A stretch of DNA of 64,000 bases, from assembly GCF_900089605.1 (NCBI RefSeq), contig NZ_LT594324.1, positions 992,001 through 1,056,000 of the forward strand. The letters are read 5' to 3'. Positions 7,935 to 61,537 of this stretch are shown here, piece after piece. The notes beneath the pieces are model-generated. The model was not told the DNA's origin and did not search any database. It saw only the letters and a list, made by a program, of their open reading frames with translations. A program made the translations under genes and the position numbers. Position 1 is the first letter of the stretch, and each line of letters begins with the position of its first letter. This DNA is from Micromonospora narathiwatensis (lineage in GTDB: Bacteria; Actinomycetota; Actinomycetes; Mycobacteriales; Micromonosporaceae).

Positions 7935-8926
7935 CCCGCGATACCCCGACCACGGAACGGGCCGGTGCGGAACCCGCGCCGGCCCTGTGCCGTGCCGTCC
8001 GGGGCTACCTGGACCACCTCACCGTCGAGCGTGGGCTCTCCGTGAACACCCTCGCCTCGTACCGTCGCGACCTCGACCGCTACCTGGTCACCCTGGCCGC
8101 GGCCGGGGTGACCGACCTGGCCGCGGTCGGGGCCGCCGAGGTCGAGGGACATCTGGCCCGGCTGCGCGCCGGCGACGCCGACCACCCGCCCCTCGCCGTG
8201 TCATCGGCGGCCCGTGCCGCCAGCGCCGTCCGCGGCCTGCACCGCTTCGCGCTGCGCGAGGGGCTGGCTGGCGTCGACCCCAGCCGCGACGTCCGCCCGC
8301 CCACCCCGGCGCGCAGGCTGCCCCGGGCGCTGCCGGTCGACGACGTCATCCGGCTGCTGGAGGCCGCCGGCCCGGGCACCGCCACCGGCGACGCGGCGCC
8401 CCGCACGCTGCGCGACCGGGCGCTGCTGGAGTTCCTGTACGGCACCGGCGCGCGCATCTCCGAGACGGTCGGCGCGGTCGTGGACGACCTGGACGTGGAC
8501 GAGGGGACCGTGCTGCTGCGCGGCAAGGGCGGCCGGACCCGCCTCGTGCCGGTCGGCGGGTACGCGGTCGAGGCGCTGCGCGCCTGGCTGGTGCGGGGCC
8601 GTCCGGCACTGCTCGCCGCCGGCCGGGGCACCCCGGCGGTCTTCGTCAACGCGCGGGGCGCCCCGCTGACCCGGCAGGGCGCCTGGACCGTCCTGCGCGG
8701 CGCCGCCGAGCGGGCCGGCCTGCCGGTGGCCGGACCCGACGCGGTCTCCCCGCACACCCTGCGCCACTCGTACGCCACCCACCTGCTCGACGGCGGCGCC
8801 GACGTCCGGGTGGTGCAGGAACTGCTCGGCCACGCCTCGGTGACCACCACCCAGGTGTACACGTTGGTCACCGTGGAGCGGCTGCGCGAGGTGTACGCCA
8901 CCGCCCACCCACGGGCCCGCGGCTGA
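7931..8926 (+). CDS. xerD: Site-specific tyrosine recombinase XerD
   Basis: The protein is about 331 residues and has the SAM-like N-terminal domain ([20 protein letters not shown]) and the catalytic core. Visible catalytic signatures are the first Arg in GTGARISE, the [12 protein letters not shown] box and the [14 protein letters not shown] box with the nucleophilic Tyr. It resolves chromosome dimers at dif with XerC. There is no ATG, GTG or TTG between the ald stop and the conserved N-terminus. The most likely start is CTG 7931, overlapping the ald TGA, which is an unusual start codon. It precedes parA/scpA/scpB, as in many actinobacteria. Confidence 0.93.
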
Positions 8927-55931: not shown

Positions 55932-56356
55932 CCATGAGAGCGCCCCTCATCCGCCCACGCCCGGCCGGGCGCGGGCGGATCAACCCCTGCTGCCGCGACC
56001 GTGGCAGCTCGCCGGTGGAGTTCGCCATCATCGCGCTGCCGATGCTCCTGCTGACCTTCGCCGTCGTCCAGACCGGGTTGGTCTTCTTCGCCCAGTCCAT
56101 CGCGCTGGCAGCCGCCACCCAGGGCGTCAACGGCGCCCGTGGCTACCAGTCCACAGCCGCAGCCGGCGAGAGTCGAGCCCTCAACTTCCTGTCCACCGCC
56201 GGAGCCGGCCTGGAGAACCGGCAGGTCGTCGTCACTCGTACGGCAACGGAGGTACGAGTCACCGTCACCGGCCGGGCGATCACCGTGCTTCCCGGCTTCA
56301 ATTGGACGATCAGCAGATCCGCGCATGGCCCGGTAGAACGGCCGACCGCACCATGA
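55928..56356 (+). CDS. tadE: TadE-like pseudopilin
   Basis: The 142-residue protein (GTG 55928 or ATG 55934) has the TadE signature RGSSPVEFAIIALPMLLLTF with the conserved Glu in the hydrophobic segment. A soluble C-terminal part follows (NRQVVVTRTATEVRVTVTGR). TadE proteins are minor pilins processed by the prepilin peptidase. It overlaps both neighbours by 4 bases. Confidence 0.9.
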   Translation: MTMRAPLIRPRPAGRGRINPCCRDRGSSPVEFAIIALPMLLLTFAVVQTGLVFFAQSIALAAATQGVNGARGYQSTAAAGESRALNFLSTAGAGLENRQVVVTRTATEVRVTVTGRAITVLPGFNWTISRSAHGPVERPTAP

Positions 56357-56844
56357 GGAGGCGATGGAACCGCCGGGAACGCGGGTCGGCATCCATCGAG
56401 ATGGCAGTCGTCGCGCCCGCCATCCTGGCGTTGTTCGCCAGCGCTGTCATCGCGGGCCGGGTCAACCTCGCCCGTCAGGCTCTGGAAGCGGCGGCCTACG
56501 ACGCTGCACGCACCGCTTCCTTGGCACGCACCTCAAGAGAGGCGAACGCCCAGGCGCAGGCGGCCGCCCGCGCCACGCTCGAGGCCCAGGGACTGAGCTG
56601 CACCAGCTTGAACGTCACGGTCTCCACCGCAGGCTTCGACGTCCCCGTCGGGCAACCCGCCACCGTCACCGCCACCCTGAGGTGCCGTGCGACCTTCTCC
56701 GACGTCGCACTGCCCGGCATGCCTGGCACGGTGCCGATCAGCGCATCCTTCACCAGCCCGCTGGACACATATCGGGGAAGAGCTCTCGGGTTCGGGATTA
56801 CTGAAGCAGGTTCTGCGGCGAACCCGAGTGTGGGTGGCGTGTGA
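56353..56844 (+). CDS. Second TadE-like pseudopilin, 3' end altered by a transposon
   Basis: The 163-residue product begins RRRWNRRERGSASIEMAVVA, the TadE/TadF-type leader and helix, and has a Cys pair. The last 17 residues after LDTYRGRALG (codons from 56791) are encoded by the inserted element and look foreign. Removing 56791-61037 makes the frame continue as RPR and stop at TGA 61047-61049, overlapping the next gene by ATGA. The ancestral product would be 149 residues. The protein may still work, since only the tail is changed. Confidence 0.88.
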   Translation: MRRRWNRRERGSASIEMAVVAPAILALFASAVIAGRVNLARQALEAAAYDAARTASLARTSREANAQAQAAARATLEAQGLSCTSLNVTVSTAGFDVPVGQPATVTATLRCRATFSDVALPGMPGTVPISASFTSPLDTYRGRALGFGITEAGSAANPSVGGV

Positions 56845-56927
56845 TGAGCATATCGGTGCGCTTCAGTTCGGGAACCGGCTATGGCGAGAGCGTCAGCCGG
56901 GCTGGCTGGAACGGTGGATTCCGCCGC

Positions 56928-57719
56928 CTAGCTGTTTGTGGTGGGAACGCGGCCGATGGCGGTGAAGAACGTGAAGGCGGCCAGGAATGGGCCGTTGGTC
57001 AGGCTGGTGAGCCAGGTCCGGGCGGCGTTCTCGTCGAGGGCTCCGGACTGCCATGCGCGCTGGGCGACGGCGGGCATCCGCAGGATGGCGTCTGCGGCTT
57101 GGTAGTCGTGGAACATGGCGACGGTGGCCTGGATGGAGGCGACTTCGAACCCGACGTCGTTGAGGAGTCGGCCGAGTTGCCGTCCGATAGCGGCGTTGCG
57201 AACCACCTTGCTGGTGACGTAGCGGGTGTAGGCGCGGCTCGTTGCGGTGTCGGCGGCGTCGATGGCGAGGGTGTCCCAGTCTGGTTCGGCCAGTGCGACC
57301 AGGCCGCCGGGACGTACGACTCGTCGCAGTTCGGCCAGTGCCTGGCGGGGGTCGGTGAGGTGTTGCAGCACCCGGTCGGTGCGGGCACGGTCGATGCTGG
57401 CGTCGTCGAGTGGCAGGGCGTGGGCATCGCCGGCTCGAACCGTGACGTGTGTGTGCGCTGCGGTTCGTTGCTGGGCTTGCTCCAGCATCGCTGGGTCGTG
57501 ATCGATGCCGATGACGGCTCCCCTGTCTCCGACCGCGTTGGCCAGCGCGGGAAGGTCGGTTCCGGGCCCGCACCCGACATCGAGCACCACGTGGCCTGGG
57601 CGCAGGTCCAGCGCCGTGAGGAGTTGTTGCTTGTATTGGCGCCCGGGATCGCTGGCGGCGGCTTGGTCGAGGTAGGCGATCTGGTCGGCGGCGCGCAGGG
57701 TGCTGCTGGGCGGGGTCAT
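56928..57719 (-). CDS. Class I SAM-dependent methyltransferase (UbiE-like), transposon passenger
   Basis: The protein is 263 residues from ATG 57719. It shows the SAM-binding motif VLDVGCGPGTDLPALANAVG, the acidic residue at the end of strand 2 (IGIDHDP), GDAHALPLDDASIDRARTDR and LRRVVRPGGLVALAEPDW. These place it with UbiE/COQ5-type small-molecule methyltransferases, not rRNA Erm enzymes. The substrate is unknown. It is encoded at the far end of the transposon, where passenger genes lie, and could give a new property such as modification of a natural product or antibiotic; that is speculation. Confidence 0.85.
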   Translation of the reverse strand: MTPPSSTLRAADQIAYLDQAAASDPGRQYKQQLLTALDLRPGHVVLDVGCGPGTDLPALANAVGDRGAVIGIDHDPAMLEQAQQRTAAHTHVTVRAGDAHALPLDDASIDRARTDRVLQHLTDPRQALAELRRVVRPGGLVALAEPDWDTLAIDAADTATSRAYTRYVTSKVVRNAAIGRQLGRLLNDVGFEVASIQATVAMFHDYQAADAILRMPAVAQRAWQSGALDENAARTWLTSLTNGPFLAAFTFFTAIGRVPTTNS

Positions 57720-57803
57720 GGGAGCAGGAAACCACAGTCGCGACCCGGCGTGGGGGTGTTGCTGTGGTGGTTGTGTGGAGATCAAGTCCTGGGGTTCGGC
57801 GGG

Positions 57804-59534
57804 TCAGCCGGTGGTGGAATCGCGGTTTGCGGTCGGACCGGTGAGACCGGGGTGGTCGACGGTGGCGGTGTAGCGGGTGCTGGCCTGCACCGAGAGGCCG
57901 AACAGGTCGACGAGGCGGCGGACATCGCCGTCGGTGGCGTGGGCTTCGTTGAGGATGCGGTCTTCGCGGATCGCGGTGCCGGACAGTCCTTTGCCGGTGA
58001 TGAGCCAGGTCCAGCGTTGGCCGACTGCGGCGTCGGGCCGGCAGGCTGTGCGGTAGTGCAGGAAGAAGTGGTCGTTGAGGGTGTTGGGCCAGCGTGTGTG
58101 GCGGTAGTCGAGCCAGCGGTTGAGGCGGTCGAGCACGGGCTCGGCCAGGACGATGACGCGGCCGTCGGTGTGCAGGCGTCCGTCGCGCAGATCGGTGACC
58201 TTGAGACGGCGGATGTGTCCGGGGCGCAGTCCGTGGAAGGCGATCAGGGCGACGACGGCTGCTTGGGCGAGGTTGCTGGAGTTGAGGGCCTGCCGGATGG
58301 CGTCGAGGTTGGCGGGGACGGGCTGGCGGGATGCGTGTTCGCCGGTTTTGACGCGGCGGGTTGGGTCGGTGAACAGCACCTTGTGCTCCTTGAGCACGCG
58401 GAAGACCGACTTGAGTCCTTGTCCGGCGGTGGATCGCTGGTTCCCGGAGGCGGGCAGGGCGTCGAGCACATCGTCCTTGCTGATCTCGCGCAGGGTGGTG
58501 TGTCCGCTGGTGGCCCAGGCGCGCAGGGTGGGCAGGGCCCAGCTGGTGTGCAGGCGGATGGTGGTCTCGGAGCGCGGCCGTCGGCGCGGGCTGGTGGGAC
58601 GGCCGTGCCGCATGACGTGGTACCAGGTGAGCAGTTCGGTGGTCATCGGCTCGGGAAGGCCCTCGATCTGGCTGTGGAACCAGGTGTCGAACGCTGGGTG
58701 CCGGTCGTCGATCAGCAGGCCGGCGTCGGCGAGGACCTCGAGCACGGTCCAGGTGCGCAGGCCGGCGGCGCGCAGTTGGAGGACCTCGGTGGCATTGATG
58801 GCCGCGCCGGGGGTGTCTTGCAGACCGAGCAGGATGCGGATGCCCCAGCGGGCCTCGTCGGTGTGCTTCTTGCCCCACCGTCGGGCAGCGGCGTAACAGC
58901 GGGTGTGTCGGTCGAGCTCGTCGGCGAAAGCCGGGTCGGGTGGTGCCGGCATGGCGGCGCGTCCGCACGCGGCGAGGTCACGCTCCATGGTGAACAGCAG
59001 CAGTTGCTGGTGTCGGACAGGGCGCCGCGGCGGGTGGTCGGCCGCGGGCGGGGTGGACTTGGGCTGGTAGCGGCTGCCGTCGGAGAACATGTTGGCCAGG
59101 AACAGTTGCTGCCCGTTGCGGTTGGCAGCGACAACGTCAAGCTTGTCGCGGCCGGTGCGGACCAGGGTGGCCTGCTTGCGGCACAGTCGGCAGACGCCCT
59201 CGGCGCCGAGGATGGTGGCCCGGCCGCAGGTGCGGCAGTCGCCGACGACCTTGTACTTGGCGCGCCAGGTGCTGCAGCCGTGGCACCGCCAGTTGTGCAG
59301 CCGGGTCACGCCCCACGCGTAGCAGTCCCGGCAGGACTCGACCGGCGGCGTGGCGTAGGGGTGGCAACGGGTGCACAGCCCAGCGGCGAAGTAGCCGAAA
59401 CGGGAGCCGCAGCGCAGGCATGGCGGCGGGATGACCGGGCCACCCGGCCAGCAGGTGAAGCAGAAGTCGACCTGCGGCATGGCCACCGGCGTGGTGCGGC
59501 AGCTGGTGCATCGCCGGACGCGGGGTCTGCTCAT
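57804..59534 (-). CDS. TnpB-like tyrosine recombinase with eight CxxC knuckles
   Basis: The protein is 576 residues from ATG 59534 (ATGA overlap with the HTH gene). The first 130 residues hold eight CxxC pairs (CTSC, CFTC, CLRC, CTRC, CRDC, CHGC, CRTC, CRLC), enough for about four zinc ribbons. A recombinase core follows with the first Arg in LIAFHGLRPGHIRRLKVTDL. The C-terminus has NEAHATDGDVRRLVDLFGLS and then RYTA with a candidate Tyr, but the usual HxxR and GH boxes are weak. It resembles the second recombinase of Tn554-type elements. Confidence 0.78.
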   Translation of the reverse strand: MSRPRVRRCTSCRTTPVAMPQVDFCFTCWPGGPVIPPPCLRCGSRFGYFAAGLCTRCHPYATPPVESCRDCYAWGVTRLHNWRCHGCSTWRAKYKVVGDCRTCGRATILGAEGVCRLCRKQATLVRTGRDKLDVVAANRNGQQLFLANMFSDGSRYQPKSTPPAADHPPRRPVRHQQLLLFTMERDLAACGRAAMPAPPDPAFADELDRHTRCYAAARRWGKKHTDEARWGIRILLGLQDTPGAAINATEVLQLRAAGLRTWTVLEVLADAGLLIDDRHPAFDTWFHSQIEGLPEPMTTELLTWYHVMRHGRPTSPRRRPRSETTIRLHTSWALPTLRAWATSGHTTLREISKDDVLDALPASGNQRSTAGQGLKSVFRVLKEHKVLFTDPTRRVKTGEHASRQPVPANLDAIRQALNSSNLAQAAVVALIAFHGLRPGHIRRLKVTDLRDGRLHTDGRVIVLAEPVLDRLNRWLDYRHTRWPNTLNDHFFLHYRTACRPDAAVGQRWTWLITGKGLSGTAIREDRILNEAHATDGDVRRLVDLFGLSVQASTRYTATVDHPGLTGPTANRDSTTG

Positions 59535-59848
59535 ACCGGTGGCGCCGATCGGGTCCGGCCCAGCCGCGGGGTGATCGGCGTGGCCTCGCCGCAGGCGATG
59601 GCTGTCTTGGCGGGGCGTCGTGCGGCGACCTTGTCCGCCTCGCAGACGAGCAGGTCGGTGGGCGTGCAGTCCAGCACCGCGCAGATCAGCTCCAGGTCGT
59701 CGAGCCGGATCGTGGTCGGCGTGCCGGTCCACAGCGCCGACATCTTCCCGGCGCTGATCTCCAGTCCGGCCTCGGCCAGCCGGCGGCGCAGCTCGGTGGA
59801 CTTCCAGATTCCCCGCTCGGCAGCCTTCATCCGCAGGTTCCACCGCAT
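59531..59848 (-). CDS. Small HTH protein of the transposon
   Basis: The 105-residue protein starts at ATG 59848, 5 bases after the stop of the first recombinase. It has an XRE/Cro-type helix-turn-helix: STELRRRLAEAGLEISAGKM, SALWTGTPTTIRLDDLELIC, AVLDCTPTDLLV. It occupies the place of the small accessory protein in Tn554-like elements and may regulate or bind the ends. Confidence 0.82.
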   Translation of the reverse strand: MRWNLRMKAAERGIWKSTELRRRLAEAGLEISAGKMSALWTGTPTTIRLDDLELICAVLDCTPTDLLVCEADKVAARRPAKTAIACGEATPITPRLGRTRSAPPV

Positions 59849-59852
59849 CGAC

Positions 59853-60941
59853 CTACCCCCTCGTCGTCTCGGTCAGGCGTGCCGTCACACGCTCGTTCGC
59901 CGCGGCCCAGGCGTGCTCGATGTGCTTGTCGTGCACGTGGATGTAGCCAGTGGTCGTCTGCAACCACGAATGCCCGAGCAGTTCCTGGATCGCCTTCAGG
60001 TCAACCCCTCGGGCGTAGAGCGACGACGCGCAGTAGTGGCGCAGGCCGTGCGGGGTCAGCCGGCTCTGCCAGGAAGGCAGCCACCGTTGCACCGCCGAAG
60101 CAAGGCCGTTGCGCAGAGCGTTGGTGCCGATACGTTCACACCGGCCGGTGACCGGGTCGCGACGTTCGCTGGGCAGCAACGGCGCGTGCGGGTCTGCCCA
60201 GTCGTCGCCGAACTGATGCCGCACGTCGACCAGCCACCACTGCAGCAGCTCGCCGATCGAGTTGATCCCGGGCACCATTCGGGACTTGGGCCCGCGGCCG
60301 TGGCTGCCCTTGCCGAAGCGCACGTGCAGCTTGCCCAGCTCACCCAGGTCCGGCCGCCAGTCACGGATGTCCAACATCGCGGTCTCGGTGATCCGCAGGC
60401 CGGCCCGGCGCCACAACGACGCCGCCAGATAGTCCCGTGCCGCCGGAAGATACTTACGCGCCTGGGGCAACGCCCCGCGCCAAGCGCCGAACAGGGTCTC
60501 TACCTCGCCGTCGGACGGGGGAACTCGCACATTTGCCGTGTACGGCTTCGGCGGCCGGTTGTACTCGTCGATCGGCTGCACCAGCACATGGCCGGTCAGC
60601 GCGTGGATGTCTCCTTGGTACCGCGTCAGCAGAAAGTCGAAGAACTGCGCAACAACCCACGCCTTCCCCGTCACCGTCGCCGGAGCCAGCCCGCGATCCT
60701 TGCGCAGGTGCACCAGGTACCGGTCGGCGTCGCCAGGCTGGCACGTCCACACCGGCTCGCCAAGGAACCGGATGAACTCGAACAGTACGTACCGCTCCTT
60801 CACGATCTGCCGATCGGTGATCCCCGAACCAGCCGACGCCAAGGCGTACTGATCGACCAACTCCTGCTCGAAGTCCTCCAACTCGGCCGCTGTCCGCAGC
60901 CGACGCGGGGCATCGATCGACCGCACCACCGCCAGCGCCAT
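59853..60941 (-). CDS. TnpA-like tyrosine recombinase
   Basis: The 362-residue protein is the length of Tn554 TnpA. A core-binding domain (ERYVLFEFIRFLGEPVWTCQ) precedes a catalytic domain with all key boxes: RRAGLRITETAML (first Arg), TPHGLRHYCASSLYARG (HxxRH), LLGHSWLQTTTGYIHV (His and nucleophilic Tyr). It should catalyse excision and insertion of the 56.8-61.0 kb element. Its start lies about 95 bp from the right core repeat. Confidence 0.88.
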   Translation of the reverse strand: MALAVVRSIDAPRRLRTAAELEDFEQELVDQYALASAGSGITDRQIVKERYVLFEFIRFLGEPVWTCQPGDADRYLVHLRKDRGLAPATVTGKAWVVAQFFDFLLTRYQGDIHALTGHVLVQPIDEYNRPPKPYTANVRVPPSDGEVETLFGAWRGALPQARKYLPAARDYLAASLWRRAGLRITETAMLDIRDWRPDLGELGKLHVRFGKGSHGRGPKSRMVPGINSIGELLQWWLVDVRHQFGDDWADPHAPLLPSERRDPVTGRCERIGTNALRNGLASAVQRWLPSWQSRLTPHGLRHYCASSLYARGVDLKAIQELLGHSWLQTTTGYIHVHDKHIEHAWAAANERVTARLTETTRG

Positions 60942-61045
60942 GGTCGCCCCACTTCAGGAATCACTCGCCAACGTCTGCACAAGCGACAACGAGTCAGGAA
61001 TCCCGACGTTCCGTCGAAACTCCCATCTGTGCTCGGGAGGCCCCG

Positions 61046-61537
61046 ATGACCAGGTGCTTCGGCAGCTCAAGACAACCCGGCCAGGAAGAAACCCGTGACA
61101 CTTCTGACAAGATCATGAAAGCCGCCATCCGCCGGCTGAGCGACGACGACGGCCGGATCACGATCTGGTTCGCCGTCCTCGCACCCGCCTTCCTCGCCCT
61201 GATCGGCCTCATAGTCGACGGCGGCGCCAAGATACGCGCCTACCAGCGCGCGGACAACATCGCCGCCGAGGCGGCCCGTGCTGGCGGGCAAGCAATCAAG
61301 GCCGGACAGGCCATAGACGGCGGTGCCAAGGAGATCGACCCCTCGCGCGCCGCCTCCGCCGTGCAGGCGTACCTCGACGATCTCGACGGGGTCACCGGCA
61401 GCGTCCGTGTCAACAACCCCCAACAGCTCACGGTCACCGTCACCGTCACCTACAACCCGATCCTGCTCGACCTGTTCGGCGGGGGCGGCGGCACGACGGT
61501 GACCGGCCGGGCGACCGCGAACCTGATCGCCCAGTAG
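61046..61537 (+). CDS. TadG-like pilus assembly protein
   Basis: The protein is 163 residues from ATG 61046, or 141 from ATG 61112. The TadG-type N-terminal segment is DDGRITIWFAVLAPAFLALI (conserved short polar stretch then membrane helix), followed by DGGAKIRAYQRADNIAAEAA. The C-terminal half is a small soluble domain. It is the first pilus gene after the transposon. Before the insertion its ATG overlapped the upstream stop; now translation must restart on its own. Confidence 0.85.
   Translation: MTRCFGSSRQPGQEETRDTSDKIMKAAIRRLSDDDGRITIWFAVLAPAFLALIGLIVDGGAKIRAYQRADNIAAEAARAGGQAIKAGQAIDGGAKEIDPSRAASAVQAYLDDLDGVTGSVRVNNPQQLTVTVTVTYNPILLDLFGGGGGTTVTGRATANLIAQ

Follow-up and report, generated by a model that had tools for sequence, protein, structure and literature searches.

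Transposons related to Tn554 include an actinobacterial class without TnpC (Famint36/41) that was defined in 2012, and plasmid pNOCA01 of Nocardioides sp. JS614 is listed as a Tn554-related carrier without TnpC (PMC3414803, Table 2). We analysed a 64,000-nucleotide stretch of Micromonospora narathiwatensis (RefSeq assembly GCF_900089605.1, contig NZ_LT594324.1, positions 992,001 to 1,056,000; hereafter the window), in which a 4.3 kb transposon interrupts a Tad operon in antisense orientation. An element recombinase is 62.4% identical over 99% to one on NC_008697 (pNOCA01), and because PMC3414803 lists that plasmid, the element is by sequence a member of this known class, on the assumption that the listed gene is the same one. 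Here we report that the operon strand of the element is free of stops almost from end to end, and that this property is tied to residence in operons. Loci are cited below by L numbers and genomes by G numbers.

All genes of the insert lie on the minus strand: a tyrosine recombinase (TnpA-like), a small helix-turn-helix (HTH) protein, a second long protein (TnpB-like) and a methyltransferase (Table 1). On the operon strand the same DNA holds the longest open frame of the window, running from a TGATG at the left end of the element to an ATGA at its right end, and no terminator-like site was found on this strand of the element. The copy in L080 carries an acetyltransferase-like gene (named by eye; L080 3181-3735) in place of the methyltransferase, and despite the different cargo its operon-strand frame extends over 1318 codons from ATG. 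TnpB shares the phase of TnpA in 58 of 59 elements and the HTH gene is shifted by one in all of them; across the HTH region of these 59 elements the element-wide phase has 2 stops, compared with 41 and 123 in the other two. Five plasmid elements (TnpA 61-62%) have 0 stops in the element-wide phase and 19-37 in the others, and none of six more distant or broken plasmid elements has a fully open module. Cargo varies by copy; the L079 copy has a 285-amino-acid frame of unknown kind, and thioredoxin or redox genes adjoin the plasmid elements in L173 and L175.

A frame of this length could be a genuine gene that encodes its own protein. Its openness and length would fit, as would antisense peptides that are slightly more alike than a synonymous-shuffle null (0.48 versus 0.44 for the window and L103; 0.71 versus 0.57 for the window and L102, the same locus as L080). 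However, four-fold degenerate sites are nearly saturated (0.45-0.47 identical versus 0.40 expected at saturation, at 50-70% amino acid identity), the frame crosses unlike cargo in the window and in L080, and its length from the left ATG ranges from 13 to 1401 codons among the copies at this tadE site. The near-saturated four-fold sites led us to reject a conserved antisense protein as the principal explanation, and we consider it quite improbable. As judged from these comparisons, only the absence of stops is kept; the antisense peptide is barely conserved and is not the main object of selection.

Antisense stops correspond to TTA, CTA and TCA in the recombinase genes, and we counted these stop-making codons in TnpA plus TnpB. 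Scanning named genomes with four TnpA sequences, we obtained 67 loci; from these and the window, the eight with TnpA matches shorter than 300 residues (L158, L159, L162-L166 and L168) were left out of the codon counts, and L116 lacked TnpB. The resulting first set of 60 elements contained 38 stop-making codons among 53,953, with none at all in 48 elements, compared with 342 among 64,799 in host-flank genes (open frames no shorter than 150 codons, selected on their pattern of guanine plus cytosine (GC)); the Fisher p value of 4e-51 overstates the independence of the elements. The whole module was open in 45 of 59 elements (24 of 31 after thinning). The HTH genes, which belong to the same operon and are out of phase, use stop-making codons normally (42/6,454), as do sister elements with TnpA identities of 42-53% (42/7,999), and other A-ending codons occur at normal shares (ratios 0.79-1.22).

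A stop-free frame was not, however, a trait of the whole family. The window's own family (TnpA 60-73%) includes members with 4-20 stop-making codons each, and its full count is 71/10,157 in 11 copies, the two with none (L082 and L182) being the two in Tad operons. The first set under-samples such stop-bearing elements, and we rejected the family-wide version. We then compared 75 elements (TnpA 58-100%) by location. Of these loci, ten were added from the own-family search (TnpA at least 60% over at least 280 residues), and the plasmids contributed five of their nine records that reach 60%. We excluded second copies (G285, G000) as well as genes that were split or incomplete, G015, G324 and G209 among them. 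Locations were classed by tblastn with few queries, so that some cases may be missed. Tad-sited elements had 0 stop-making codons in 17,634 (none in 20/20 elements), those beside conjugation genes 55 in 30,754 (none in 25/34), those elsewhere 48 in 11,124 (none in 2/12) and those on short contigs 1 in 8,286 (none in 8/9). Elements lacking these codons were over-represented in Tad operons relative to the rest (p=0.0008), and this held after thinning to below 80% TnpA identity (40 elements; Tad 16/16, rest 14/24; p=0.003). Of the 20 Tad-sited elements, 19 have a fully open module. These counts indicate that the trait tracks Tad operons without fail, many conjugation operons, and other places rarely. 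The claim is thereby narrower than a family-wide one, and the dependence on location favours the mechanism proposed below.

The location counts also bear on the possibility that GC-rich codon usage produces the long antisense frame as a side effect. In 213 kb of flanking DNA, 21 antisense-like frames reach at least 500 codons and 2 at least 1000, and elements of the same class outside operons are near the host rate (0.43% versus 0.53% in the flanks), both as this explanation would expect. Yet elements of one class differ between 0/17,634 in Tad operons and 48/11,124 elsewhere, and the HTH genes of those elements stand at the host rate. On the HTH, sister-element and location controls we rejected GC bias, which we hold to be very improbable as the cause.

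The assignment to Tad operons rests on TadE by Pfam, on TadA-TadC recognized by eye in the window and then by tblastn across loci, and on the pNOCA01 annotation. The window's Tad proteins match 16 of the 67 loci, and in all 16 the tad genes lie on the strand opposite to TnpA; in 11 of them tad genes flank the element on both sides, at several different junctions. The same opposition holds for 20/20 Tad-sited loci in the 75-element set. Elements in L121, L123 and L131 follow a VirB4-like gene, and among annotated plasmids tad genes occur in L169 and conjugation genes in L170, L172 and L174. Beyond the right end, a GC-phase rule gave a call on the first gene-like frame in 48 loci, and in 43 of them this frame points the same way as the operon strand. 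Upstream overlaps were found in 26 of 59 loci, 17 of which we trusted by eye as host genes, a count made without a chance control; on the right side, an overlapping start leads into a frame of at least 100 codons in 12 of 59.

Overlapping stops and starts link tadE to the insert and the insert to the next tad gene in all ten copies at the tadE site. Base shuffles of long inserts almost never keep this chain (0.000-0.003), whereas rotated inserts keep it in 0.31-1.0 of trials, the long ones in about a third to a half, because the frame itself is open. Shuffles of short scars often keep it (1.0 for L083, 0.70 for L099, 0.33 for L085 and 0.17 for L097), and as stand-alone proof the coupling in scars is weak. 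Given these shuffle and rotation results, the weight of the case lies in the codon counts and their link with location, with the end phases as support. In L083, L084, L085 and L099 the left-end ATG opens a frame that joins the downstream tadE-like gene in phase, and the element end may there have been taken over as the gene start.

We directly observe where the element sits and how it is oriented, the stop-free frame and its tie to residence in operons, and the overlaps; upon these we build the following reading, to which we give roughly two chances in three: the element is a translationally transparent, site-specific transposon that spares its host operon from polarity. The translation itself, the benefit against polarity and the mode of transposition are what we infer. 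The recombinases would place the element at a gene junction of a tightly coupled operon (tadE2/tadE3), antisense to the operon. The upstream gene would enter the left end and terminate at TGATG, where ribosomes would restart, follow the stop-free frame across the whole element, stop at the right-end ATGA, restart and enter the next host gene in phase. The proposed benefit builds on Rho-dependent polarity in bacteria: ribosomes staying close behind RNA polymerase on the 4.3 kb of antisense RNA would avoid it, and translational coupling would be kept. Nearly as probable, in our estimate, is the broader proposal that a transposon group has evolved for antisense read-through, with phase-locked genes, purged codons, an open cargo frame and end overlaps; such elements would live in Tad and many conjugation operons and leave these unsilenced, and the non-operon copies would be without the trait, which may have more than one origin. 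In the sister group, L028, L029 and L033 (TnpA 44-53%) have their three genes in one phase and 0/1,990 stop-making codons, and perhaps represent a second transparent lineage.

Translation of the operon strand might instead serve the element, by stripping antisense RNA off the recombinase mRNA or by controlling recombinase expression. Transcripts of the operon would be antisense to every gene of the element, and the same frame would serve this end. However, the overlaps at both ends and the frames that lead on to the following host gene speak for downstream expression, and antisense elements beside virB4-like genes do without the trait; we regard this alternative as unlikely.

Several observations weigh against transparency to the operon. 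The six virB4-associated elements just mentioned (L181, L183-L185, L087 and L088) lie antisense and yet have 4-20 stop-making codons each, and L124 and L126 have one each. Tad-sited L114 has an out-of-phase TnpB and no open module, and in L103 no stop ends the frame before it enters the next gene. Stop-making codons are also few in three plasmid sister elements (1/892, 3/856 and 1/852), which have no open module. When A-ending codons are measured against T-ending ones, the controls scatter more, with odds ratios from 0.52 (Val) to 1.78 (Pro). The slight excess of antisense peptide similarity, the two flank frames of at least 1000 codons, and the ease with which short scars and rotated inserts keep the chain count on the same side.

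The borders of the element were set by a second copy and by empty sites. At 5.59 Mb the same genome has another TnpA gene with 100% identity, and the copy around it (G000:C1:5589361-5593691) equals window 56779-61109 base for base over 4331 bp, with unlike flanks on both sides; it likewise lies between TadE2 and TadE3, of a different tad operon. The two identical copies in one genome suggest that the element copies itself, although excision and reinsertion after replication would give the same two copies. A left-flank search of the genus gave eight matches covering most of the flank, the window's own included. In L038, with flanks 96-97% identical, the empty site is contiguous at 56778|61110, and L039 is the same, with no bases gained or lost at either joint; L040, L041, L042 and L044 are also insert-free, and L043 has an element at the identical point. 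The uninterrupted tadE gene ends ..TYRGRS-stop, with an ATGA that overlaps the next gene at its real start, 61115.

The insertion into the Tad operon is real, but the borders drawn earlier were wrong. The sequence-only reading had taken the element as 56791-61037, between two CTCGGG motifs (56785-56790 and 61032-61037), and proposed that its removal restores G-R-P-R-stop, with TGA at 61047-61049 over an ATG at 61046 as the old 4-base overlap of the operon. The motifs are present and the reading-frame arithmetic is reproducible. The comparison it had suggested, with relatives that lack the insert, gives a different joint in L038 and L039, in agreement with the second copy, and the repeat is a matter of chance, since the two end regions share 4 6-mers against 3.6 expected in base shuffles. 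An ATGA overlap of the kind proposed does join the uninterrupted genes, at 61115; the second copy and the empty sites make 61038-61109, with the ATG at 61046, element DNA, and the ATGA there recurs in the L080 copy and in small scars of another genus. We give the earlier borders next to no credence. Its account of the content of the insert (two tyrosine recombinases, a small HTH protein and a methyltransferase, Tn554-related and within a Tad operon) was borne out.

Table 1. Features of the element and its insertion site (window positions)
Feature	Position	Strand	Remarks
tadE gene (TadE2), host part, insertion target	56353..56778	+	Pfam TadE E=1.2e-9; end is the joint in empty sites L038 and L039
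Element	56779..61109		4331 bp, 68.7% GC; exact second-copy match, divergent beyond; empty sites in relatives
Left end giving tadE tail RALGFGITEAGSAANPSVGGV plus stop	56779..56844	+	similar tail in 10/10 tadE-site copies
Left-end inverted repeat CTCGGGTTCG (56785-56794) / CGAACCCGAG (56819-56828)	56785..56828		read from sequence; also in L079
Operon-strand open frame	56841..61049	+	1402 codons from GTG 56841 (1401 from ATG 56844); antisense to all element genes
TGATG, tadE stop overlapping long-frame start	56842..56846	+	in 10/10 tadE-site copies
Cargo S-adenosylmethionine-dependent methyltransferase	56928..57722	-	Pfam Methyltransf_11 E=4e-23
TnpB-like recombinase, 576 amino acids	57804..59534	-	N-terminal CxxC array, C-terminal tyrosine recombinase; profile versus XerA E=4.8e-8; predicted fold; invariant residues
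HTH protein, 105 amino acids	59531..59848	-	Pfam HTH_26 E=7e-16; out of phase with TnpA and TnpB (phase +1 in 59/59 elements)
TnpA-like tyrosine recombinase, 362 amino acids	59853..60941	-	Pfam Phage_integrase E=4e-19
ATGA, long-frame stop over start of frame in phase into next tad gene	61046..61049	+	right end; also in L007, L080, L097 and L098
Host bases AGATC after right end	61110..61114		CGCCG in L007, CGGGG in L080; no target duplication seen
Downstream TadE-like gene from own start	61115..61537	+	Pfam TadE / Tad; start set by empty sites

The second long protein had no Pfam match, and no NCBIfam model scored above cut-off for the element recombinases. The profile of the long protein finds XerA, and its predicted model (mean predicted local distance difference test score 83.7, predicted template modelling score 0.59) matches XerA, Cre and the Tn1549 integrase (Int). 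H434, R523, R526 and Y555 are among the columns invariant in 30 sequences, and the CxxC pairs fall within the first 120 residues.

A whole-element search of 160 genus genomes found the first ~70 bp of the element in seven places. With window 56762-56850 as the query, 17 bases of which are host DNA, 354 family genomes gave eleven. Ten of the eleven, in 9 of the 354 genomes and in three genera, are copies or scars at the tadE site, each between TadE2 and TadE3 and at the codon that follows Y-R-[S/G/A]; no tad genes were shown for the eleventh match, L100. They comprise the two full copies here, L080 (Micromonospora sp. HNM0581), the decayed 1.67 kb copy in L079, and remains in L083, L084, L085, L097, L098 and L099. 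L098 resembles L097 around the joint, and both perhaps go back to one event. The first five left-end bases are AGAGC in G000, G259, G218, G216 and G219, AGAAC in G231, AGATC in G078 and G081, and CGGGC in G333, and the five bases that follow the right end vary among the three full copies (AGATC, CGCCG and CGGGG). A left core that mostly travels with the element would fit these end bases, from cases that are few and mixed. The left-end motif was only partly useful in a search for the borders of all relatives.

Two further recombinase loci were seen. The plus strand at window positions 8294-8917 has a stretch 30% identical to TnpA, which is probably another tyrosine recombinase, and L090 2321-11166 (G184) holds two sister-group elements in tandem on one contig.

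The new observations are the ten copies or scars at one tadE codon, the 1402-codon operon-strand frame and the codon avoidance tied to location. Among titles and abstract openings in the open-access literature we found no stop-free antisense strand in a transposon and no such elements in Tad operons. Operon insertions usually silence downstream genes. If our reading is true, mobile DNA would have a new means of limiting harm, namely to keep the host operon readable through an open antisense frame; this would explain how these elements persist in Tad operons, would amount to a whole-element test of ribosome-RNA polymerase coupling in actinomycetes, and would caution gene callers about thousand-codon antisense frames. 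The codon signature, with its loss outside operons, opens the way to genome-wide searches for similar elements.

Several described systems invite comparison. The sequence-only reading had found a Tn554-like element notable in an actinomycete on the ground that the type is best known from Firmicutes; this argument fails, as the actinobacterial class had been defined by 2012 (PMC3414803) and the nine plasmid records with a recombinase of at least 60% identity are all actinobacterial. Like Famint36/41, the element pairs a short with an abnormally long recombinase, adjacent and co-oriented; we call the short one TnpA, although the pairing with Tn554 TnpA and TnpB given in PMC3414803 is at odds with the gene sizes. 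Neither the HTH gene nor operon targets, nor orientation, nor a stop-free antisense frame comes up in the passages on Famint36/41 in that paper. The pNOCA01 element has the identical three-gene order and lies between TadB- and TadC-like genes. Mobility is evident from the two identical copies in different tad operons of one genome. Tn554 has one preferred site (PMC3414803), and correspondingly 10/10 tadE-site copies occupy one codon and no target duplication was seen, the joints in L038 and L039 being free of gain or loss; relatives use other junctions. Tn554 also has two tyrosine recombinases and a small third protein; the third gene here is of the HTH_26 family and the target is a tad operon, a likening made by description. 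RIT elements likewise have several adjacent tyrosine-recombinase genes, but three rather than two, the middle gene here encoding the HTH protein, and the element is not of that type. Finally, long antisense non-stop frames occur in GC-rich genomes and are also stop-free antisense to genes; in the transposons described here, by contrast, the stop-making codons are missing from a single element-wide phase, and this is confined to elements within certain operons.

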